Below are positions 4,555 through 25,132 of a DNA stretch of 27,602 bases, piece after piece. A program made the position numbers and the translations under genes. The first letter of the stretch is position 1. Each line of letters opens with the position of its first letter. Source of the DNA: a virus; the IMG/VR virus record IMGVR_UViG_3300009034_000180, positions 1 through 27,602 of that record; one strand, written 5' to 3'. Under the pieces are notes generated by a model that saw only the letters and a list, made by a program, of their open reading frames with translations, did no database searches and had not been told where the DNA came from.

Positions 4555-4815
4555 ATGAATATAGTTATATTAATAGCTAAATTACTATTCATATTATTTT
4601 ATGTTAGGTATAAATGTTTATTATGTCATGGATGGGGAGTTGTATTAGGTTGTTATAATGATGGTCATCTTAAACAACATGATGATGGTAGTATTGAAAT
4701 AGTTCCATTTTGGACTTACGAAAGAAGCATACCTGAAACTTGCTGTAATTGTCATGGAAAAGGGTATGTAACGATAGAGCGAAAATTACCAATACCTGAA
4801 TATAATATTCCATAA
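4555..4815 (+). CDS. Membrane-anchored protein with DnaJ-type zinc motifs
   Basis: This 86-aa protein has an N-terminal hydrophobic segment (IVILIAKLLFILFYV) followed by two CxxCxGxG-like motifs, CLLCHGWG and CNCHGKGY. They are separated by about 45 residues, as in the zinc-binding centre of DnaJ-type co-chaperones. The J domain and substrate domains are absent. A membrane-tethered zinc-knuckle protein is the plain reading. It could bind a host chaperone or nucleic acid, but this is not shown. The start is preceded only by GGAGTGAGAG, a moderate site overlapping the end of the previous gene. Confidence 0.65.
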   Translation: MNIVILIAKLLFILFYVRYKCLLCHGWGVVLGCYNDGHLKQHDDGSIEIVPFWTYERSIPETCCNCHGKGYVTIERKLPIPEYNIP

Positions 4816-4841
4816 CCAGACAAGCTGGAGTAGGAGGAGTG

Positions 4842-5087
4842 ATGGATAAGAGAAAAATCTATTTAATTTGGGATAAAGAACTAAAGAGACCCTATCCCGC
4901 AACTTTATATAATGGAGAGTCTGTAATACCAATGACCTATTACAGAAAAAAGCAAGCACAGGAATTCATAAGTTCTTGGCCAACAGTGGATACCAGAAAG
5001 ACATTTAAAATAATCACAATCAAGATTGAGGATACCCCATGCCCTGCACCGAATGTGAATACTATCGAATCTACTACGAACCCTTAG
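4842..5087 (+). CDS. Small hypothetical protein
   Basis: An 81-aa protein. The ATG at 4842 is chosen over the adjacent GTG at 4839 because it has better spacing from TAGGAGGAG. It starts RKIYLIWDKELKRPYPATL and has a QAQEFISSW helix. This is the sort of small alpha/beta protein common in phage accessory operons, and I cannot name a family. Its 3' end overlaps the Cys-rich gene starting at 5039 by 49 bases in another frame, showing strong compaction. Confidence 0.6.
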   Translation: MDKRKIYLIWDKELKRPYPATLYNGESVIPMTYYRKKQAQEFISSWPTVDTRKTFKIITIKIEDTPCPAPNVNTIESTTNP

Positions 5088-8225: not shown

Positions 8226-8409
8226 AAAAACCAATGGCTGGAGAAAGGTGGTCATCTTTTTGGTTTCCGAAGTGACGGTGCTTCTAATGACGCTGTTTGG
8301 AGGATTATCAGCAGAGACGGCGGCTGATGTAATCAAATACATCGCTTTAGGCTTCTTCGCTGGTAACGGGATTGAACACTTGGGGAAGCTGATTAATATC
8401 GTCAAGTAG
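8218..8409 (+). CDS. Small membrane protein, holin-like
   Basis: A 63-aa protein with a strong AAAGGAGG site. It has two hydrophobic segments, VVIFLVSEVTVLLMTLFGG and VIKYIALGFFAGNGI, separated by a short turn with acidic residues, and a charged N-terminus. This topology fits a class II holin, but small accessory membrane proteins can look the same. The recognisable lysin is on the opposite strand at 11764-12183 beside another holin-like gene, so this one may have a different timing or role. Confidence 0.55.
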   Translation: MPEKTNGWRKVVIFLVSEVTVLLMTLFGGLSAETAADVIKYIALGFFAGNGIEHLGKLINIVK

Positions 8410-8410
8410 G

Positions 8411-8590
8411 CTTTCCATCCTCACCCAGGGATGGAACCTCCCGAAAATGAGTAAACGCTTGGATACCAAGAAGGTTGCTTATTTCCTCCTGGCCCGGTGG
8501 GATAGGGAGTGTATAGCTGAGGGGTAGCCGGGCCAACTGAATTACTCAGGGCTGGTTGTAGGGGACTTGTCTCCGCCAGCCCTGGGGGAT
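8411..8590 (+). ncRNA. Candidate structured RNA with nested GC-rich stems
   Basis: This stretch has no credible gene but holds a dense set of long perfect stems. They are 8413-8420/8429-8436 (TTCCATCC, 8 bp), an enclosing stem 8448-8454/8542-8548 (TGAGTAA, 7 bp), inner hairpins 8458-8462/8466-8470 and 8490-8497/8528-8535 (TGGCCCGG, 8 bp), and 8549-8555/8576-8582 (GGGCTGG, extendable to 9 bp). The last is capped by 8561-8565/8570-8574 with a CTTG tetraloop. CTCC at 8486-8489 could pair with GGAG at 8506-8509 inside a loop as a pseudoknot. The stems are far more GC-rich than their surroundings. The class is not recognised. Confidence 0.6.
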
Positions 8591-8608
8591 TGAATTTGTA
8601 ATTACTAT

Positions 8609-8659
8609 AAAAGCACAGGGAGTTCCTATTAATATTGCATATATCTACTCCCCGCTTTT
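8609..8659 (+). repeat. Covarying hairpin repeat R1
   Basis: Outer stem AAAGC (8610-8614) pairs with GCTTT (8654-8658). An internal loop has ACA on the 5' side and a single C (8653) on the 3' side. Inner stem GGGAG (8618-8622) pairs with CTCCC (8648-8652). The terminal loop starts TTCCTATTAAT and ends CTA, with a small AT mini-stem inside. Confidence 0.75.
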
Positions 8660-8667
8660 TAAAATTC

Positions 8668-8722
8668 GAGGCATAAGAAGTTCCTATTAATTTGACTTGA
8701 AATCAAAATTACTTCTCGCCTC
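8668..8722 (+). repeat. Covarying hairpin repeat R2
   Basis: Outer stem GAGGC (8668-8672) pairs with GCCTC (8718-8722). The internal loop is ATA opposite C8717. Inner stem AGAAG (8676-8680) pairs with CTTCT (8712-8716). The loop starts TTCCTATTAAT, contains a mini-stem TTTGA/TCAAA, and ends TTA. Compared with R1 and R3, both strands of the stems change together. Confidence 0.75.
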
Positions 8723-8750
8723 ATTTATTTAGAAAGTTATAAAGGTTTAA

Positions 8751-8799
8751 TAAGGCAAAGGAAGTTCCTATAAAAATTTGCCAATTACTTCCCGCCTTA
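8751..8799 (+). repeat. Covarying hairpin repeat R3
   Basis: Outer stem TAAGGC (8751-8756) pairs with GCCTTA (8794-8799). The internal loop is AAA opposite C8793. Inner stem GGAAG (8760-8764) pairs with CTTCC (8788-8792). The loop starts TTCCTATAAAAA and ends TTA. It lies seven bases ahead of the AAAGGAGG site of the 659-aa gene. Confidence 0.75.
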
Positions 8800-8819
8800 A
8801 TTTATAAAGGAGGTTCAAG

Positions 8820-10799
8820 ATGAAATCGATGGTAAGGTTGTTCAAAGCGGTTGAGATAAAATCAAAGAAAAAAAAGAATCCGAGTAAGGAGCTGATGAAG
8901 GAAACTATAAAAAGAGGATTCATCTTTTCTTCGGAAGTAGCTTATAATTATACAGAGCAGGAACTAAGAAAATTAATTAAAATCATAGAAGAAGAGGTCG
9001 GCCTAACTGCCGAGAAAATGAATCAGTCTTTTCATAAGTCTTGGCAGAAAATTAAGGAGGCGGATTTAGAACAGTTGGTAGTTGAACAAATAGCACATTA
9101 TTTAACTACTTATGGGAAAGAACAGCCTAAAGAATATCTAATAGAAAAAGAGGAGCAATGGGGAGTAGATAATCTGGCAGAGAAAATAATCGAATTGCCT
9201 GACTTTGAATCGAATAAAATCCAAAATGAAAACTATATCTATATCCCAAAGGAGGCATTGAATATACCGGATATTGAGATAGATAGGATTCAGCTTACAG
9301 TCATCAAGGGTTATACGAAAAAAGAATTAAAAGAAAAGTTGCTATCATTGCTTCAATCAGGGATAGCCCTCGGAGAAGAGACTATAAATGATGTTGTTGA
9401 TATTGCCACTCATGTTGGGATAGACGAAGAAGATATAGATAATATAAAAAATAAAGAGGTAAAGATAGCTCTTTACGATTACCTAAAACTGTTCCCGGAA
9501 AACCCCATCGAGTTTTTAAGATATGTTATTTATAAATGCACAGGCAAAACACTTCTAATCAAAGATAAGGCTACTATAGAGGGAATCAAGGAGCCTGAAG
9601 GTTCAAGTGTTCTTCCTTTGTTTAAGAAATATAAAAAGAAGCACGGATTGGAAAACTTAGCTCAGATATTTTTAAGGTTCAAGCCTCTTTTCCTTGCCTT
9701 CAAAGCCGATAGAACAATGAGTCCTACCATAAATAAAATAAGGAGGTTTGCTAAAACACATCATAAGCCAATGGGAGAGGATTATCTTAATGAGGTTACT
9801 GCTAAGATTAAGAAAGGGGAAAGGATAGAAAAGAATAAACTGGAGGAAGAGTTAAGCAGAGTAAATACATTTAGAAAAATAAGATTGGCTTATGCTTTGA
9901 AATTTAGAACGAAAGATGTTGATTCAATCCTTTATAGGATAAGGAACGGAAAGGGATATGCAACGGATTTTAGTTTTGAGAAAAAAGCTATGGCGAAAAA
10001 GATATTGGATGTTGTTATGGATTCGATAGTTGAGGATATGAAAGCGAATATCAAGGGCAAGAAAATCTATATCCCTGAGTATATAACTTACACGCTACCC
10101 GCAACAGAGAAGCAGTTTACTGGTGATTTTCCTTCCGGGAGTTATGTCTCAATACCGAAGGATATGATTGTTGGTATTCATTGGGAAAATGTAGATGGAA
10201 ATATGATCGACCTGGATTTGTCTATGGTAAATGATGAAATGAAAATCGGATGGGATTCTGTATATAGAACAGAAGATAGAAATATTTTATTTTCCGGGGA
10301 CATAACAAACGCCCCAAAGCCGAAAGGAGCAACCGAGTTATTCTATATCAGAAAGCAGATTATGAGCTCATATATCCTTTTTGTGAATTATTATAATTAT
10401 GACGATGATGTGGAAGTTCCCTTCAAGATAATTGTAGCAAAAGAGCAAGCAAGGAATTTTAAAGAGAATTATATGGTTAACCCAAACAATGTGATGTCTA
10501 TTGCTAAAACAAAGATTGACCAAAAGCAAAAACTGTTAGGGCTATTGGTAACGACAACTAATGAATGTAGGTTTTATTTTGCGGAAACTTATCTTGGCAG
10601 GTCAATAACTTCTTCAAATTCAGTATTTGTTAAGAATAGCCTTGAATATCTTTTTGGTTTTTATAGGAATACTATTGATTTGAATAGTCTGTTAATAAAA
10701 GCGGGAGGTAATTTAGTAGCAAATAAGGATAAGTGTAATATAGATTTATCCCCTGAAAGTCTGGAAAAGGATAAGATTATAAATCTAATAAAACCATGA
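8820..10799 (+). CDS. Large protein of unknown family with C-terminal TerD-like domain
   Basis: This 659-aa protein has a strong AAAGGAGG site. The N-terminus is basic (KSKKKKNPSKE, residues 14-24), and residues 25-415 are mostly helical, with conserved-looking stretches such as NTFRKIRLAYALKFRTKDVD (349-368) and a helix-rich solenoid appearance. Residues about 430-545 are beta-rich and match the TerD pattern by eye: DLDLSM (464-469), FSGDIT (491-496) and YILFVNYYNYDDD (518-530), resembling the DLDAS, TGDN and strand motifs of TerD calcium-binding domains. A further 110 residues follow. No signal peptide or membrane span is visible. It sits directly behind three structured repeats, and its stop overlaps the winged-helix gene by four bases. 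RNA binding to those repeats is an inference. Stress or defence roles known for TerD systems are another possibility. Confidence 0.7.
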   Translation: MKSMVRLFKAVEIKSKKKKNPSKELMKETIKRGFIFSSEVAYNYTEQELRKLIKIIEEEVGLTAEKMNQSFHKSWQKIKEADLEQLVVEQIAHYLTTYGKEQPKEYLIEKEEQWGVDNLAEKIIELPDFESNKIQNENYIYIPKEALNIPDIEIDRIQLTVIKGYTKKELKEKLLSLLQSGIALGEETINDVVDIATHVGIDEEDIDNIKNKEVKIALYDYLKLFPENPIEFLRYVIYKCTGKTLLIKDKATIEGIKEPEGSSVLPLFKKYKKKHGLENLAQIFLRFKPLFLAFKADRTMSPTINKIRRFAKTHHKPMGEDYLNEVTAKIKKGERIEKNKLEEELSRVNTFRKIRLAYALKFRTKDVDSILYRIRNGKGYATDFSFEKKAMAKKILDVVMDSIVEDMKANIKGKKIYIPEYITYTLPATEKQFTGDFPSGSYVSIPKDMIVGIHWENVDGNMIDLDLSMVNDEMKIGWDSVYRTEDRNILFSGDITNAPKPKGATELFYIRKQIMSSYILFVNYYNYDDDVEVPFKIIVAKEQARNFKENYMVNPNNVMSIAKTKIDQKQKLLGLLVTTTNECRFYFAETYLGRSITSSNSVFVKNSLEYLFGFYRNTIDLNSLLIKAGGNLVANKDKCNIDLSPESLEKDKIINLIKP

Positions 10800-11170
10800 C
10801 TTGGTTTCTAAAAGAAAGATTTAGTAGGGAGGAGCGAATCGTCTTTGATGAGATAGATAATCATCAAGGCCGGGAATCCGCTATCTCTGTGCCTATCCTG
10901 ACAAGGTGTGTGCAGATCCGATTGAATGGGGATTATATCTCTGAGGTTAAAGTTAGGAAAATCGTTAGGGCCCTTATCGTAAAACATGGGATGCCGATTG
11001 GATCGGCCACTCGATTCCCATCCGGCTATTATATCATAACCGATGCCGAGGAGCTAAAAGAAGTGGTGAGATCTCTCAGGAGTAGGGGATTGAATATATT
11101 AAAAAGAGCGTCAAAAATAGAGAGTGCCGGCAGAAGGAATTTTACAGGGCAGTTGAGATTGGAGGTATAG
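10796..11170 (+). CDS. Winged-helix DNA-binding protein
   Basis: This 124-aa protein has a helix-turn-helix segment at about residues 28-62 (ISVPILTRCVQIRLNGD, then SEVKVRKIVRALIVKHG). A wing follows with PIGSATRFPSGYYIITDAEE, and then a helical tail with LRSRGLNILKRA. This layout is common in small phage replication or regulatory proteins, where the wing reads GYYI(I/L). The ATG overlaps the stop of the large gene (ATGA), so the two are co-translated. A palindromic operator with a TATAAT box lies 50-70 bases downstream and is a natural candidate target, though binding is not shown. Confidence 0.7.
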   Translation: MTWFLKERFSREERIVFDEIDNHQGRESAISVPILTRCVQIRLNGDYISEVKVRKIVRALIVKHGMPIGSATRFPSGYYIITDAEELKEVVRSLRSRGLNILKRASKIESAGRRNFTGQLRLEV

Positions 11171-22246: not shown

Positions 22247-25132
22247 TTAAACATATTTCCCCATCCAGGGGTTACTCATGTCATTAATCAAAGCATTCGT
22301 AAAAGCCTTAATATCATCTGGATTTAAAAACCTTGCCTCTAAAAAGTTATTAGAAGGATCGGGGTTATCCGGTTTTATATCCATTGCTATTTTTGCCTTG
22401 ATACCCAGGCCGAGAAAGCCTACGGCTTCCGAGTAATAAGGCAACCCGTCAATCATCCATCTGATATTACAACCATTGCCAAGAAATTCTTTTCTATAAA
22501 GGTTAATAGCATTATGGCATATCCCGGCTATTTCCTCAGTCATTTGACCTCTATTAGCTTGTAATTTATAGCGGGCAAGGTGAGCCCAATCCCTAACCAT
22601 TAAGAATTTGCCAAGCACCCTATCGGGATATTTTTCTCTATCCCTAATCATAAGATGGAAGTTTCTATGAAATCTTTTTATCCGCCCCTCCTCGGTAAAA
22701 TAACCATCGTGAGCAATCTCTACATCACCTAATAGAGTAACATCACCAACGCTTTTATTTAATCCTATTTCAGGGTGTTCATGAACAACACCGAAAAACT
22801 TAATGCTTTTATTGTTTCTAAATAATCTAACAGGCAGATCGGGCGGAAAGGCATTAGGGGGATTTGTAGAGAAATGATGTTGCCGGATTGCATAGCCATT
22901 AAATATATTTTCCCTCAGATATTTATCAATATGGTTTGTTCTCAATAACTCCTCATCGGCATCAATCCATAATATCCAGTCCATTTGGGCAGATTTAATA
23001 CTATTATTCCGGGCTTCGTCAAACCCTACCTCTACGGGACTCAGCCCATCAATAACCATGTCTGCATATCCCTTTAATATTTCTCTGGTGCTATCAGTAG
23101 AATTATCATCAGCAACGATAATCTCATCGGCAATCCAATCAACACTTTTTAAGCACCGCCTCAACATATCCTCGCCATTTTTGACTATCATACAAACTGA
23201 TATTGTTTGCCTCGGATTCTGCACATACAATTTACGATCCATATCAATAGGTTTTGCAGGTTCACCACCTTCCTGCCATGTGTAAAAATACCACCCCAAC
23301 GCTACACCATCTAAATCGGAAATCGAACCAGGAATAATCATCTTTTGGAAATTAGGCTTATGGCCGAACATTCCTTTTATATCCCAATTCTCAAGTTCCC
23401 ATATATGCTCCCTTTTGCTGTCCTTTCTATATGTGAACATTTCCCAAGTCCCCATCGGAGTCGTTACCAAAATAATCCCTCCGGGTTTTAACCATTTCTC
23501 GGCAGCATCGGCAAGCTTCCAGGGTTCCGGGGTATGTTCAAGCACTTCCATTAGTAAAACTAAATCATAGCAAGGATGTGGATACTTCTCTGTTAATATA
23601 TCCGCTACCCTTACTGTATATCTATCTTTGGAATATTTATCTTTTAAAACTTTCAAGGAACTGTTAACCATAGAAGGCGATATATCAAAGCCATCTACAT
23701 GATACTTTTCGTCAAGGTCAAGGATAGCTCCGATATATTCCCCCTGAGCACAACCGATGTCAAGAATGTTTTTAACTTTAGGATGCCCCTCAAGCCACCT
23801 TTTAACGGCAGGCCAACGGGGAGGGTTCGGAGGGCGGAGGGTATCACCAACTTCGCCAAGATATTTCTTAGCTGCTATTTCCTCATTCTCGATATATTTA
23901 TAATCATAAACGAAGGGCCATTGATTTCTTAGCCGCTTTGATAGCCTACCCTTTCTAATATCATTGGTTTTTTCCAACGAAGCTTTCGCAGCTATAATAT
24001 CACTTCGTCTTGTAAAATGATAAGCAAGTCTGACTTTATCCTTAGTTGCATTTTCAAAATATTCATCAAACAATTTTGACCATTCCTGCCCTAAAGATTC
24101 AAGGCCAAATAATTTAGATCGTTCATACCCGGCCGCAGAGTTCTCCTTCCATTTATCCTCATTTGTCAATAGCTCTAATGATTCAGTAATGAACCTACCC
24201 TGATATTCAGAACCCCGTGCATCATCTTCCCAAATTAACTTCCCTGCCTGATTGCCAAGAGTTTCCGGGAGGGCAGCCCGGAATGACCCTACCATCGGCA
24301 AACCGACTGCCATGCACTCCATCGCAGTAATACAAGATATTTCCTCAAAATCGGAAGGGTATAAATAAAGCATTGATGTCCGGTAGTGTTCGTATAAATC
24401 TTCTTTTCTCAATGCTCCCAGGTGAACAACCTTATCACCAAGTCCCGCAATCAAGTTATCTATCTTGTTATATAACCCTGCTAAATGCTGAACCCTGTTA
24501 TCATATCCAGCTAAATACAATTTCAAATTAGGTAGTTTTTCCAAAAGGCGGGGGAAGGTCTTTTCAAGAACTATATCCATGCCTCTCTCCGGCCTGGCAG
24601 TATAAATAACTTTGTTTCTATCCCTCTGTTCTAATGGCCGGGGAGCAGGTAAAAGGTATCGGTCAATGCCATTCCTTGTTACTTTAAATGCTTCATCGGG
24701 CAGTTTATATACTTCCTTATATTGGTCTTTCATAAACTCACTCAATACCCATACTTGATCTACATTCCATAATGTTCCCCGGACAAGAGGGGTGAATCTA
24801 TTAAGAGCAAGGTCATGTGACCAGAGTATATGAAGCTTTGAGTTTATTCGGAAACTAAACGCCTGCGGATCTCGCTGCACTATTGTTATATCATGTGGGG
24901 TATAAATAGCCCATTCAGGAAAGCGGGAAACATTAAGATATTGAACACCGTTATAATCGCCTTCTCTTTCGCAATTAGAAAAGACGATTACTTCATGTCC
25001 CTGTTGTTTAAGGGTGCGAGCCATTTGAAGCCCTATTGTTTCAGAGCCTCCGAGATCCTTAGTCTCAAGTGTAGAACCGTCAAACGGCATACCATTAATG
25101 TAAAAGGCGATGCTGTATTTGTAGTGCTTCAT
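22247..25132 (-). CDS. Fusion protein: GT4 glycosyltransferase - methyltransferase - GT2 glycosyltransferase
   Basis: This 961-aa protein has three enzyme parts. Residues 1-370 are a GT-B/GT4 glycosyltransferase, with LGGSETIGLQMA (27-38), TRNGIDRYLLP, IYTARPERGMD and the EExxxxxxME-like segment at 263-272. Residues about 405-620 are a class I SAM methyltransferase, with LDIGCAQGEY (457-466), FDISPSMV and LLMEVLEHTPEP. Residues 642 to about 830 are a GT-A/GT2 glycosyltransferase, with SVCMIVKNGEDMLRRCLKSV, VADDNSTD and the DxD WIDADEE (724-726). It has no signal peptide. It lies between the major capsid and connector genes, behind an RNA element that ends the capsid transcript. A role in glycan building on virion or host is plausible but unproven. 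Confidence 0.9.
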   Translation of the reverse strand: MKHYKYSIAFYINGMPFDGSTLETKDLGGSETIGLQMARTLKQQGHEVIVFSNCEREGDYNGVQYLNVSRFPEWAIYTPHDITIVQRDPQAFSFRINSKLHILWSHDLALNRFTPLVRGTLWNVDQVWVLSEFMKDQYKEVYKLPDEAFKVTRNGIDRYLLPAPRPLEQRDRNKVIYTARPERGMDIVLEKTFPRLLEKLPNLKLYLAGYDNRVQHLAGLYNKIDNLIAGLGDKVVHLGALRKEDLYEHYRTSMLYLYPSDFEEISCITAMECMAVGLPMVGSFRAALPETLGNQAGKLIWEDDARGSEYQGRFITESLELLTNEDKWKENSAAGYERSKLFGLESLGQEWSKLFDEYFENATKDKVRLAYHFTRRSDIIAAKASLEKTNDIRKGRLSKRLRNQWPFVYDYKYIENEEIAAKKYLGEVGDTLRPPNPPRWPAVKRWLEGHPKVKNILDIGCAQGEYIGAILDLDEKYHVDGFDISPSMVNSSLKVLKDKYSKDRYTVRVADILTEKYPHPCYDLVLLMEVLEHTPEPWKLADAAEKWLKPGGIILVTTPMGTWEMFTYRKDSKREHIWELENWDIKGMFGHKPNFQKMIIPGSISDLDGVALGWYFYTWQEGGEPAKPIDMDRKLYVQNPRQTISVCMIVKNGEDMLRRCLKSVDWIADEIIVADDNSTDSTREILKGYADMVIDGLSPVEVGFDEARNNSIKSAQMDWILWIDADEELLRTNHIDKYLRENIFNGYAIRQHHFSTNPPNAFPPDLPVRLFRNNKSIKFFGVVHEHPEIGLNKSVGDVTLLGDVEIAHDGYFTEEGRIKRFHRNFHLMIRDREKYPDRVLGKFLMVRDWAHLARYKLQANRGQMTEEIAGICHNAINLYRKEFLGNGCNIRWMIDGLPYYSEAVGFLGLGIKAKIAMDIKPDNPDPSNNFLEARFLNPDDIKAFTNALINDMSNPWMGKYV

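Follow-up and report, generated by a model that had tools for sequence, protein, structure and literature searches.

Why a virus should carry a set of structured RNA elements directly ahead of one large, unfamiliar gene is the question raised by the IMG/VR record IMGVR_UViG_3300009034_000180. The window analysed here is the whole of this 27.6-kilobase (kb) virus record (27,602 nucleotides, nt), which carries phage genes including one for a major head protein. Three hairpins of one common design lie directly ahead of the gene of a 659-amino-acid (aa) protein, P0001, on the same strand. The results suggest that RNA and protein probably belong to one ribonucleoprotein (RNP) system, in which a solenoid-plus-TerD protein and constant-stem RNAs would present tRNA mimics in the course of tRNA damage or repair.

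Results and Discussion

Three hairpins of one design

An earlier note, made from the sequence, had described a 400-base structured non-coding region ahead of the gene. Its structure, direction and position were borne out, the fold of positions 8405-8825 being better than that of 100 of 100 shuffles (z -3.10). Its extent was not, as only about 190 bases consist of related hairpins and the rest is less related upstream sequence. Read 5' to 3', each hairpin has an outer stem ending in GC, an ANA bulge and an inner stem of 6 base pairs (bp; NNNAGU/ACUNNN). UCCUAU stands at the start of a variable loop, and on the returning strand a single C lies opposite the ANA bulge and is followed by GC. This pattern, run across the record, matched these three sites only, and the reversed control gave 0. 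The copies show 74-81% identity to the reference copy over 27 nt, at spacings of 58 and 84. The loop of hairpin 2 contains UUGA-CUUGAAA-UCAA (8692-8706), which resembles the anticodon arm of tRNA-Ser(UGA). No Rfam family matched the window at its gathering score, and the hairpin region gave chance-level matches only at E<=10.

Linkage of the hairpins and the protein family

A single-sequence search of virus contigs with P0001 returned no relatives; they were found by the hairpin pattern and then by a family alignment. The conserved-letter hairpin pattern, run over the IMG/VR collection, identified 17 stretches, and stems form in 15 of them. The fetched DNA of nine of the 17 also codes for a relative of the protein, as does the 424-kb record of one more. 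Six (L006, L009, L010, L011, L013 and L020) come from records without the protein; two of these (L009 and L013) have no stem, and the other four records, 10-74 kb long, may be fragments. An alignment of 11 family members brought up 178 relatives among virus contigs and 203 among genome contigs, and the locus analyses rest on the best 80 of each.

In these 160 loci a strict motif scan gave 151 matches on the gene strand, one on the other strand and 0 in two reversed controls. A covariance model (R1), built from 66 hairpins that were picked by a script demanding inner-stem pairing, gave 211 matches in 84 sources and 155 in another 80 at E<=0.1. All 366 matches, from 164 sources, were on the gene strand: 325 lay at most 600 nt upstream of the gene, 15 farther upstream, 24 downstream, and 2 at an ambiguous start. 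At least one match was present in 76 of 80 viral and 74 of 80 genome loci, and in 146 of the 152 loci with at least 400 nt upstream, counts that are not independent because the set holds near-duplicate loci (e.g. L039/L040, L139/L141, L073/L077) and 32 genome loci of one genus. Inclusion of the tRNA-bodied form described below, which occurs without an R1 match in L114, L117 and L119, raised the last figure to 149 of 152; neither form was found in L090, L100 and L134, despite 400 nt of upstream sequence. Whole-genome R1 scans (E<=0.01) detected matches in six bacterial genomes, all at the protein locus. The two observations named beforehand as counting against a linked system, homologues consistently lacking the hairpins and hairpins found mainly next to unrelated genes, were thus not made, and the idea of an RNA-protein system put forward in the earlier note is supported.

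Co-occurrence was also analysed in 78 genomes from the genus to which Chryseobacterium gregarium belongs, the hairpin being scored on the best first-look candidates of each genome. The protein was present in 50 genomes and the hairpin in 49; both occurred in 49, the protein only in one, the hairpin only in none, and neither in 28 (Fisher 2e-20, not corrected for phylogeny). In the protein-only genome (G200) the gene is a 107-position remnant. Broken or remnant protein genes are carried by three genomes, G198, G200 and G228; two of them keep hairpins, and the most decayed has none.

The protein family extends over phages, several bacterial phyla and archaeal assemblies. Distant relatives, at about 14% identity by fold and found also by profile, were detected in Lactobacillus phage LpeD (L192, 1114-3354, minus strand) and Campylobacter phage CP21 (L193, 781-2160, minus strand). 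Neither locus has a convincing R1 match (best E 0.099), so the link to the RNA is established for the nearer family only, and these two proteins may have a different RNA partner.

Constraint on the stem

Among the 66 hairpins, 7 of 12 pairs vary on both sides, with a covariation score of 0.546 versus 0.181 for shuffled sequences, a comparison that leans toward structure because the set had been chosen partly by pairing. The analysis was therefore repeated on 235 matches picked by sequence alone. All three free inner pairs were formed in 196 of these, whereas re-dealing of partners within the same set left 58 fully formed stems on average and never more than 72. Outer pairs were formed in 90% versus 66% when re-dealt. 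The stem is constant and covarying, and is constrained as RNA.

tRNA mimicry in the loops

Loop statistics were obtained from 276 covariance-model matches (the best 150 of 181, covering 75 of the 84 sources, and 126 of 126, from 72 sources), which were reduced to 196 loops at 85% likeness. Loops of 7 nt that look like an anticodon loop and have at least 3 closing bp occurred in 43 of the 196, compared with 17.5 in dinucleotide shuffles. Anticodon heptamers of real tRNAs, taken from the tRNAs of the fetched loci, were closed by at least 3 bp in 25 loops, against 4.7 expected from shuffles and a maximum of 11 in 200 of them. Longer words shared with 352 tRNAs (13-, 14- and 15-mers) were found in the sense direction in 10, 7 and 5 loops; the antisense count was 0, and shuffles gave 0.8, 0.2 and 0.07. 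Other tRNA parts were also recognised, namely T-arms in the loops of L057, L110, L155 and L136, an anticodon arm with a variable-arm-like hairpin in L094, and T-arm, acceptor and D-arm in permuted order in L037 and L136. tRNA mimicry in the sense direction is thereby shown for a subset of the loops. The loops are enriched as well in stable hairpins of simple build that are capped by CUUCGG or GAAA-type sequences.

tRNA-bodied RNAs

Beside some hairpins, Rfam calls tRNAs of about 110 nt (e.g. L141:4502-4610, 50.6 bits). These RNAs have ordinary acceptor, D and T arms, but where the anticodon loop would be they carry the hairpin core with its parts permuted: UACUNNNCGC comes first, followed by a short loop and by GC-ANA-NNNAGUUCCUAU. 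When the sources were scanned for this build, 53 such RNAs were detected, every one on the gene strand, and 49 of the 173 sources have at least one; reversed controls gave 0. They were seen in phages, in Chryseobacterium and in assemblies labelled Desulfobacterales, Anaerolineae and Gammaproteobacteria. The Marinicella locus L119 has three in tandem (4559-4972) with acceptor ends of GCC or GCCA, and these might be substrates of tRNA end processing.

tRNA arrays and gene neighbours

In the Synechococcus phages S-CRM01 and S-CBWM1 the gene and its hairpins lie inside tRNA arrays, and in Phass-1 a tRNA array about 10 kb away from the protein gene has three hairpins among its tRNA genes. Hairpins beside or between tRNA genes are also present in four other virus records (G002, G004, G009 and G015); the protein gene was not found in the G004 record, and in the others it lies far off (tens of kb or more). 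One further hairpin of G002 (L208) has no tRNA gene nearby. The presence of hairpins in tRNA arrays far from the gene argues for RNAs acting in trans, for which a simple cis-acting leader is insufficient. Two hairpins (L206, 2976-3066; L209, 2956-3015) lie 0-5 nt from the adjoining tRNA gene, a spacing that suggests processing by tRNA-end enzymes.

In Chryseobacterium gregarium the gene upstream encodes RtcB (Pfam E 2.6e-34), and RlaP, Sir2, R2K ATP-grasp and Thg1 are encoded downstream. An RtcB-type RNA ligase lies upstream on the same strand in all 32 Chryseobacterium loci, the match ending 207-773 nt before the gene, and RlaP is present in 26 of the 32. The link to RNA repair is firm in this one genus and suggestive elsewhere.

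The 659-aa protein

AlphaFold2, run on P0001 with 99 aligned sequences, gave a model with a predicted local distance difference test score (pLDDT) of 93 and a predicted template modelling score of 0.91. The solenoid-like helical body proposed in the earlier note fits this model, the basic N-terminus is visible in the sequence, and the proposed TerD-like beta domain is confirmed by its match to solved TerD structures (Z 10.4-12.4). According to the model, the C-terminal domain has the TerD fold. Conserved motifs in the family alignment are SFHKSW, RFKPLFLAFK, FRKIRLAYAL and RIRNGK in the N-terminal region, and DLDLS, GW and SGDxTNA in the TerD-like domain.

The protein is as unfamiliar as had been supposed, since no family library searched describes it: none of the families in Pfam, PHROGs, PADLOC or NCBIfam, and no PDB sequence, matched above cut-off. 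Foldseek against the PDB returned nothing at E<=0.001 for the whole model or for the N-terminal part alone, and structure comparison gave no clear known fold for the N-terminal 432 residues. No TerD row appeared at E<=1 when 11 family members were compared with Pfam. The NCBIfam model RING_SCO0854 matches 7 of the 11; P0001 matches it in the TerD part with 29.6 bits, compared with a cut-off of 600. Among the PADLOC models P0001 had no match, and one of the 11 members is weakly like SspC (E 1.2e-4).

An open reading frame (ORF) at 10796-11170 overlaps the stop codon of P0001. It matches PHROG 2113 (function unknown), with a weak, sub-threshold match to tobacco mosaic virus coat protein, and is possibly a co-translated partner of P0001.

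Comparison with known systems

The closest likeness is to the Ro60/Rsr proteins and their YrlA RNAs, particles of the Ro/Y kind, through which cells cope with RNA damage. There too one protein is combined with small RNAs, either one or several. The tRNA arms that YrlA resembles are the D, T and acceptor arms (PMC8394870). It joins a basal stem to a tRNA-like module. This build is found in the RNAs of relatives (the 53 tRNA-bodied RNAs and the two permuted loops), not in those of the window. Ro60/Rsr genes lie beside RtcB in some bacteria; in Salmonella, rsr and the Y RNA genes sit in the rtcBA operon, and the tRNA-like domain of YrlA has been suggested as a possible competitor for anticodon nucleases (PMC7790460). 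Ro-like proteins are also found in phages, a TROVE protein matching 340 phage records, many of them annotated as Ro-like. The differences concern both partners: Ro has a C-terminal vWA domain and P0001 the predicted TerD fold instead, and the RNAs of the present system have another core, several copies per locus and anticodon-arm loops. The window RNA matched no Rfam family, in a database whose holding of a YrlA-type family was not checked.

Descent from Ro was examined through the TROVE profile, which recovers Rsr and Ro60 from the PDB (E<1e-169). Structural comparison of the N-terminal model with Ro60 (9nf8) by VIA-align gave Z 4.8 and a root-mean-square deviation of 4.6 over 90 residues, at rank 12 and tied with unrelated rows. 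No TROVE chain was outstanding in the structure list, and absence from that list excludes nothing. A likeness of the end of the N-terminal region to the last TROVE helices was noted, and VIA-align places Ro60 there weakly. A TROVE identity for P0001 was dropped, the profile comparison (given below) being null and the structural likeness weak. The statement in the earlier note that neither type III antitoxin RNAs nor the Ro/Y pair matches agrees with the null TROVE and Rfam results. The tests of descent fail for protein and RNA alike. The system is related to Ro/Y RNPs in design, not by detectable descent, and would most likely work like a Ro/Y particle.

The predicted fold of the C-terminal domain is shared with the TerD/tellurite-resistance family; unlike its members, P0001 has no Pfam TerD match, is fused to a large helical region and is linked to RNAs. 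In a study of jumbo phages, TROVE and TerD are handled as separate (PMC7824862). Phage tRNA arrays contain both hairpins and tRNA-bodied forms, which may be co-transcribed with them, but the tRNA-bodied forms have no usable anticodon loop and are tied to one protein gene. The type III toxin-antitoxin system ToxIN likewise has an RNA array upstream of one gene, but P0001 has no nuclease family match and the RNA copies are not near-identical tandem repeats. No description of the protein-RNA pair was found in the literature searched, which covered no preprints and few subscription papers, so that an earlier mention is possible.

Proposed mechanism and alternatives

The RNP reading draws on five lines of evidence taken together, i.e. 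the linkage, the constrained stem, the sense-direction tRNA mimicry in a subset of loops, the placement in tRNA arrays and, in Chryseobacterium, the RtcB and RlaP neighbours. The solenoid-plus-TerD protein presumably binds the stem, and would grip the constant element formed by two short stems, the ANA/C internal loop and UCCUAU. The far end of each RNA would display a variable piece, often derived from tRNA (an anticodon arm, a T-arm or a whole tRNA body), and in the permuted RNAs the tRNA body would have the binding stem where an anticodon loop normally stands. The mimics, by analogy, could have their role in tRNA damage, where they may occupy anticodon nucleases as decoys; alternatively they may tether enzymes of RNA repair or decay, like Ro and YrlA. 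Decoys fit best with the several different anticodon arms per family, and a whole tRNA body would fit tethering or recruitment of tRNA enzymes. A fuller version, plausible but tentative, is an independently evolved RNP of the Ro/Y kind, in which an array of RNAs, each bearing a different tRNA piece, would serve as decoys or bait for anticodon nucleases and as a dock for tRNA repair. With it phages might guard translation under a tRNA-cleaving defence, and bacteria such as Chryseobacterium would use it together with RtcB and RlaP.

Several observations weigh against these proposals. The minimum-energy fold of hairpin 2 pairs the loop in a register shifted from that of the anticodon arm, and 171 of the 196 loops contain no exact tRNA anticodon heptamer closed by 3 bp. 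Of 30 listed loci of Chryseobacterium and its kin, only 10 have in hairpin 3 the tRNA-Lys-like loop CUUUUAA with at least 4 bp. Outside Chryseobacterium, tblastn finds RtcB in only four loci, and a Pfam search of 101 of the 197 neighbouring ORFs from 48 non-Chryseobacterium genome loci revealed no common partner and no dominant RNA-repair family. Comparison of family profiles from two alignments with the TROVE profile by hhalign gave a probability of 0.6%, i.e. no relationship.

The hairpins could instead be a cis-acting leader, an mRNA element by which the protein controls its own expression, as the earlier note had considered. The 325 of 366 matches close upstream of the gene favour such a leader, as does the last hairpin of the window, which ends just ahead of the ribosome-binding site. 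The 24 downstream matches and the hairpins in distant tRNA arrays (about 10 kb away in Phass-1, tens of kb or more in other phages) make it unlikely, and a leader would have no need of tRNA mimicry. Only slightly less probable is a tRNA-intron-like or mobile insertion, in which the core would sit in tRNA anticodon loops, the system would cut it out and RtcB would join the ends. It would account for the 53 tRNA bodies with the core in that loop and for the RtcB (a tRNA-splicing ligase by its Pfam name) adjacent in Chryseobacterium, but most copies stand alone as hairpins and have no tRNA body, removal of the stem from the inspected tRNA-bodied RNAs leaves loops of more than 7 nt, and the permuted tRNA pieces in the L037 and L136 loops do not fit.

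The hairpins share with guide RNAs their usual build, in which a constant handle carries a variable loop; guides or antisense RNAs that would steer the protein by pairing with tRNAs or phage RNA are nevertheless improbable, as the long words shared with tRNAs are in the sense direction only. Antisense guides against tRNA targets were dropped on this ground, tRNAs being the only targets compared. Least probable of the four is a type III toxin-antitoxin system, in which RNA repeats neutralise a toxic nuclease. The array of RNAs that precedes a single gene in the same orientation recalls it, but neither ToxN nor another nuclease family was found in Pfam, no solved structure was found by profile, and the hairpins differ in loop and spacing.

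If the RNP reading is correct, the hairpins represent an undescribed and widespread class of noncoding RNA with its own protein, in which tRNA parts are displayed on a protein-bound stem, and phage and host would gain a means to blunt tRNA-cleaving immunity. The system would also provide a comparison case for Ro/Y particles, whose tRNA mimicry and position beside RtcB have long called for an explanation. The constant stem and the cultivable Chryseobacterium species make it directly testable.

Features of the window

The coordinates are collected in Table 1. The separate GC-rich hairpin within 8540-8600 is very stable, with an outer stem, an asymmetric bulge and an inner stem, and lies off the R1 model. 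A second GC-rich hairpin farther upstream (8484-8540) is no more stable than chance (z 0.05) and is not an R1 match.

Table 1. Elements of the hairpin and P0001 locus, in positions of the window.
Feature	Position	Strand	Description	Support
GC-rich hairpin	8544..8592	+	separate, upstream of the three hairpins	z -4.45 for 8540-8600; not an R1 match
Hairpin 1	8609..8659	+	outer AAAAGC/GCUUUU, inner GGGAGU/ACUCCC, loop UCCUAUUAAUAUUGCAUAUAUCU	R1 58.6 bits; z -3.29; record-wide pattern
Hairpin 2	8667..8723	+	outer GAGGC/GCCUC, inner AGAAGU/ACUUCU	R1 59.4 bits; z -3.68
Hairpin 3	8751..8799	+	outer UAAGGC/GCCUUA, inner GGAAGU/ACUUCC, loop with UUGCCAA	R1 60.8 bits; z -3.24
Likely ribosome-binding site	8804..8815	+	AAGGAGG, between hairpin 3 and the start codon	read from sequence
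P0001	8820..10799	+	659 aa; helical N-terminal part and TerD-fold C-terminal part	ORF, structure model
N-terminal helical region	8820..10115	+	residues 1-432	family alignment; model pLDDT 88.4
TerD-like domain	10149..10637	+	residues about 444-606	VIA-align Z 12.4 to 3ibz, 10.4 to 2kxt

Elsewhere in the window, the minus strand at 22247-25132 encodes a 961-aa protein in which matches to a glycosyltransferase, a methyltransferase and a second glycosyltransferase are arranged along one chain.

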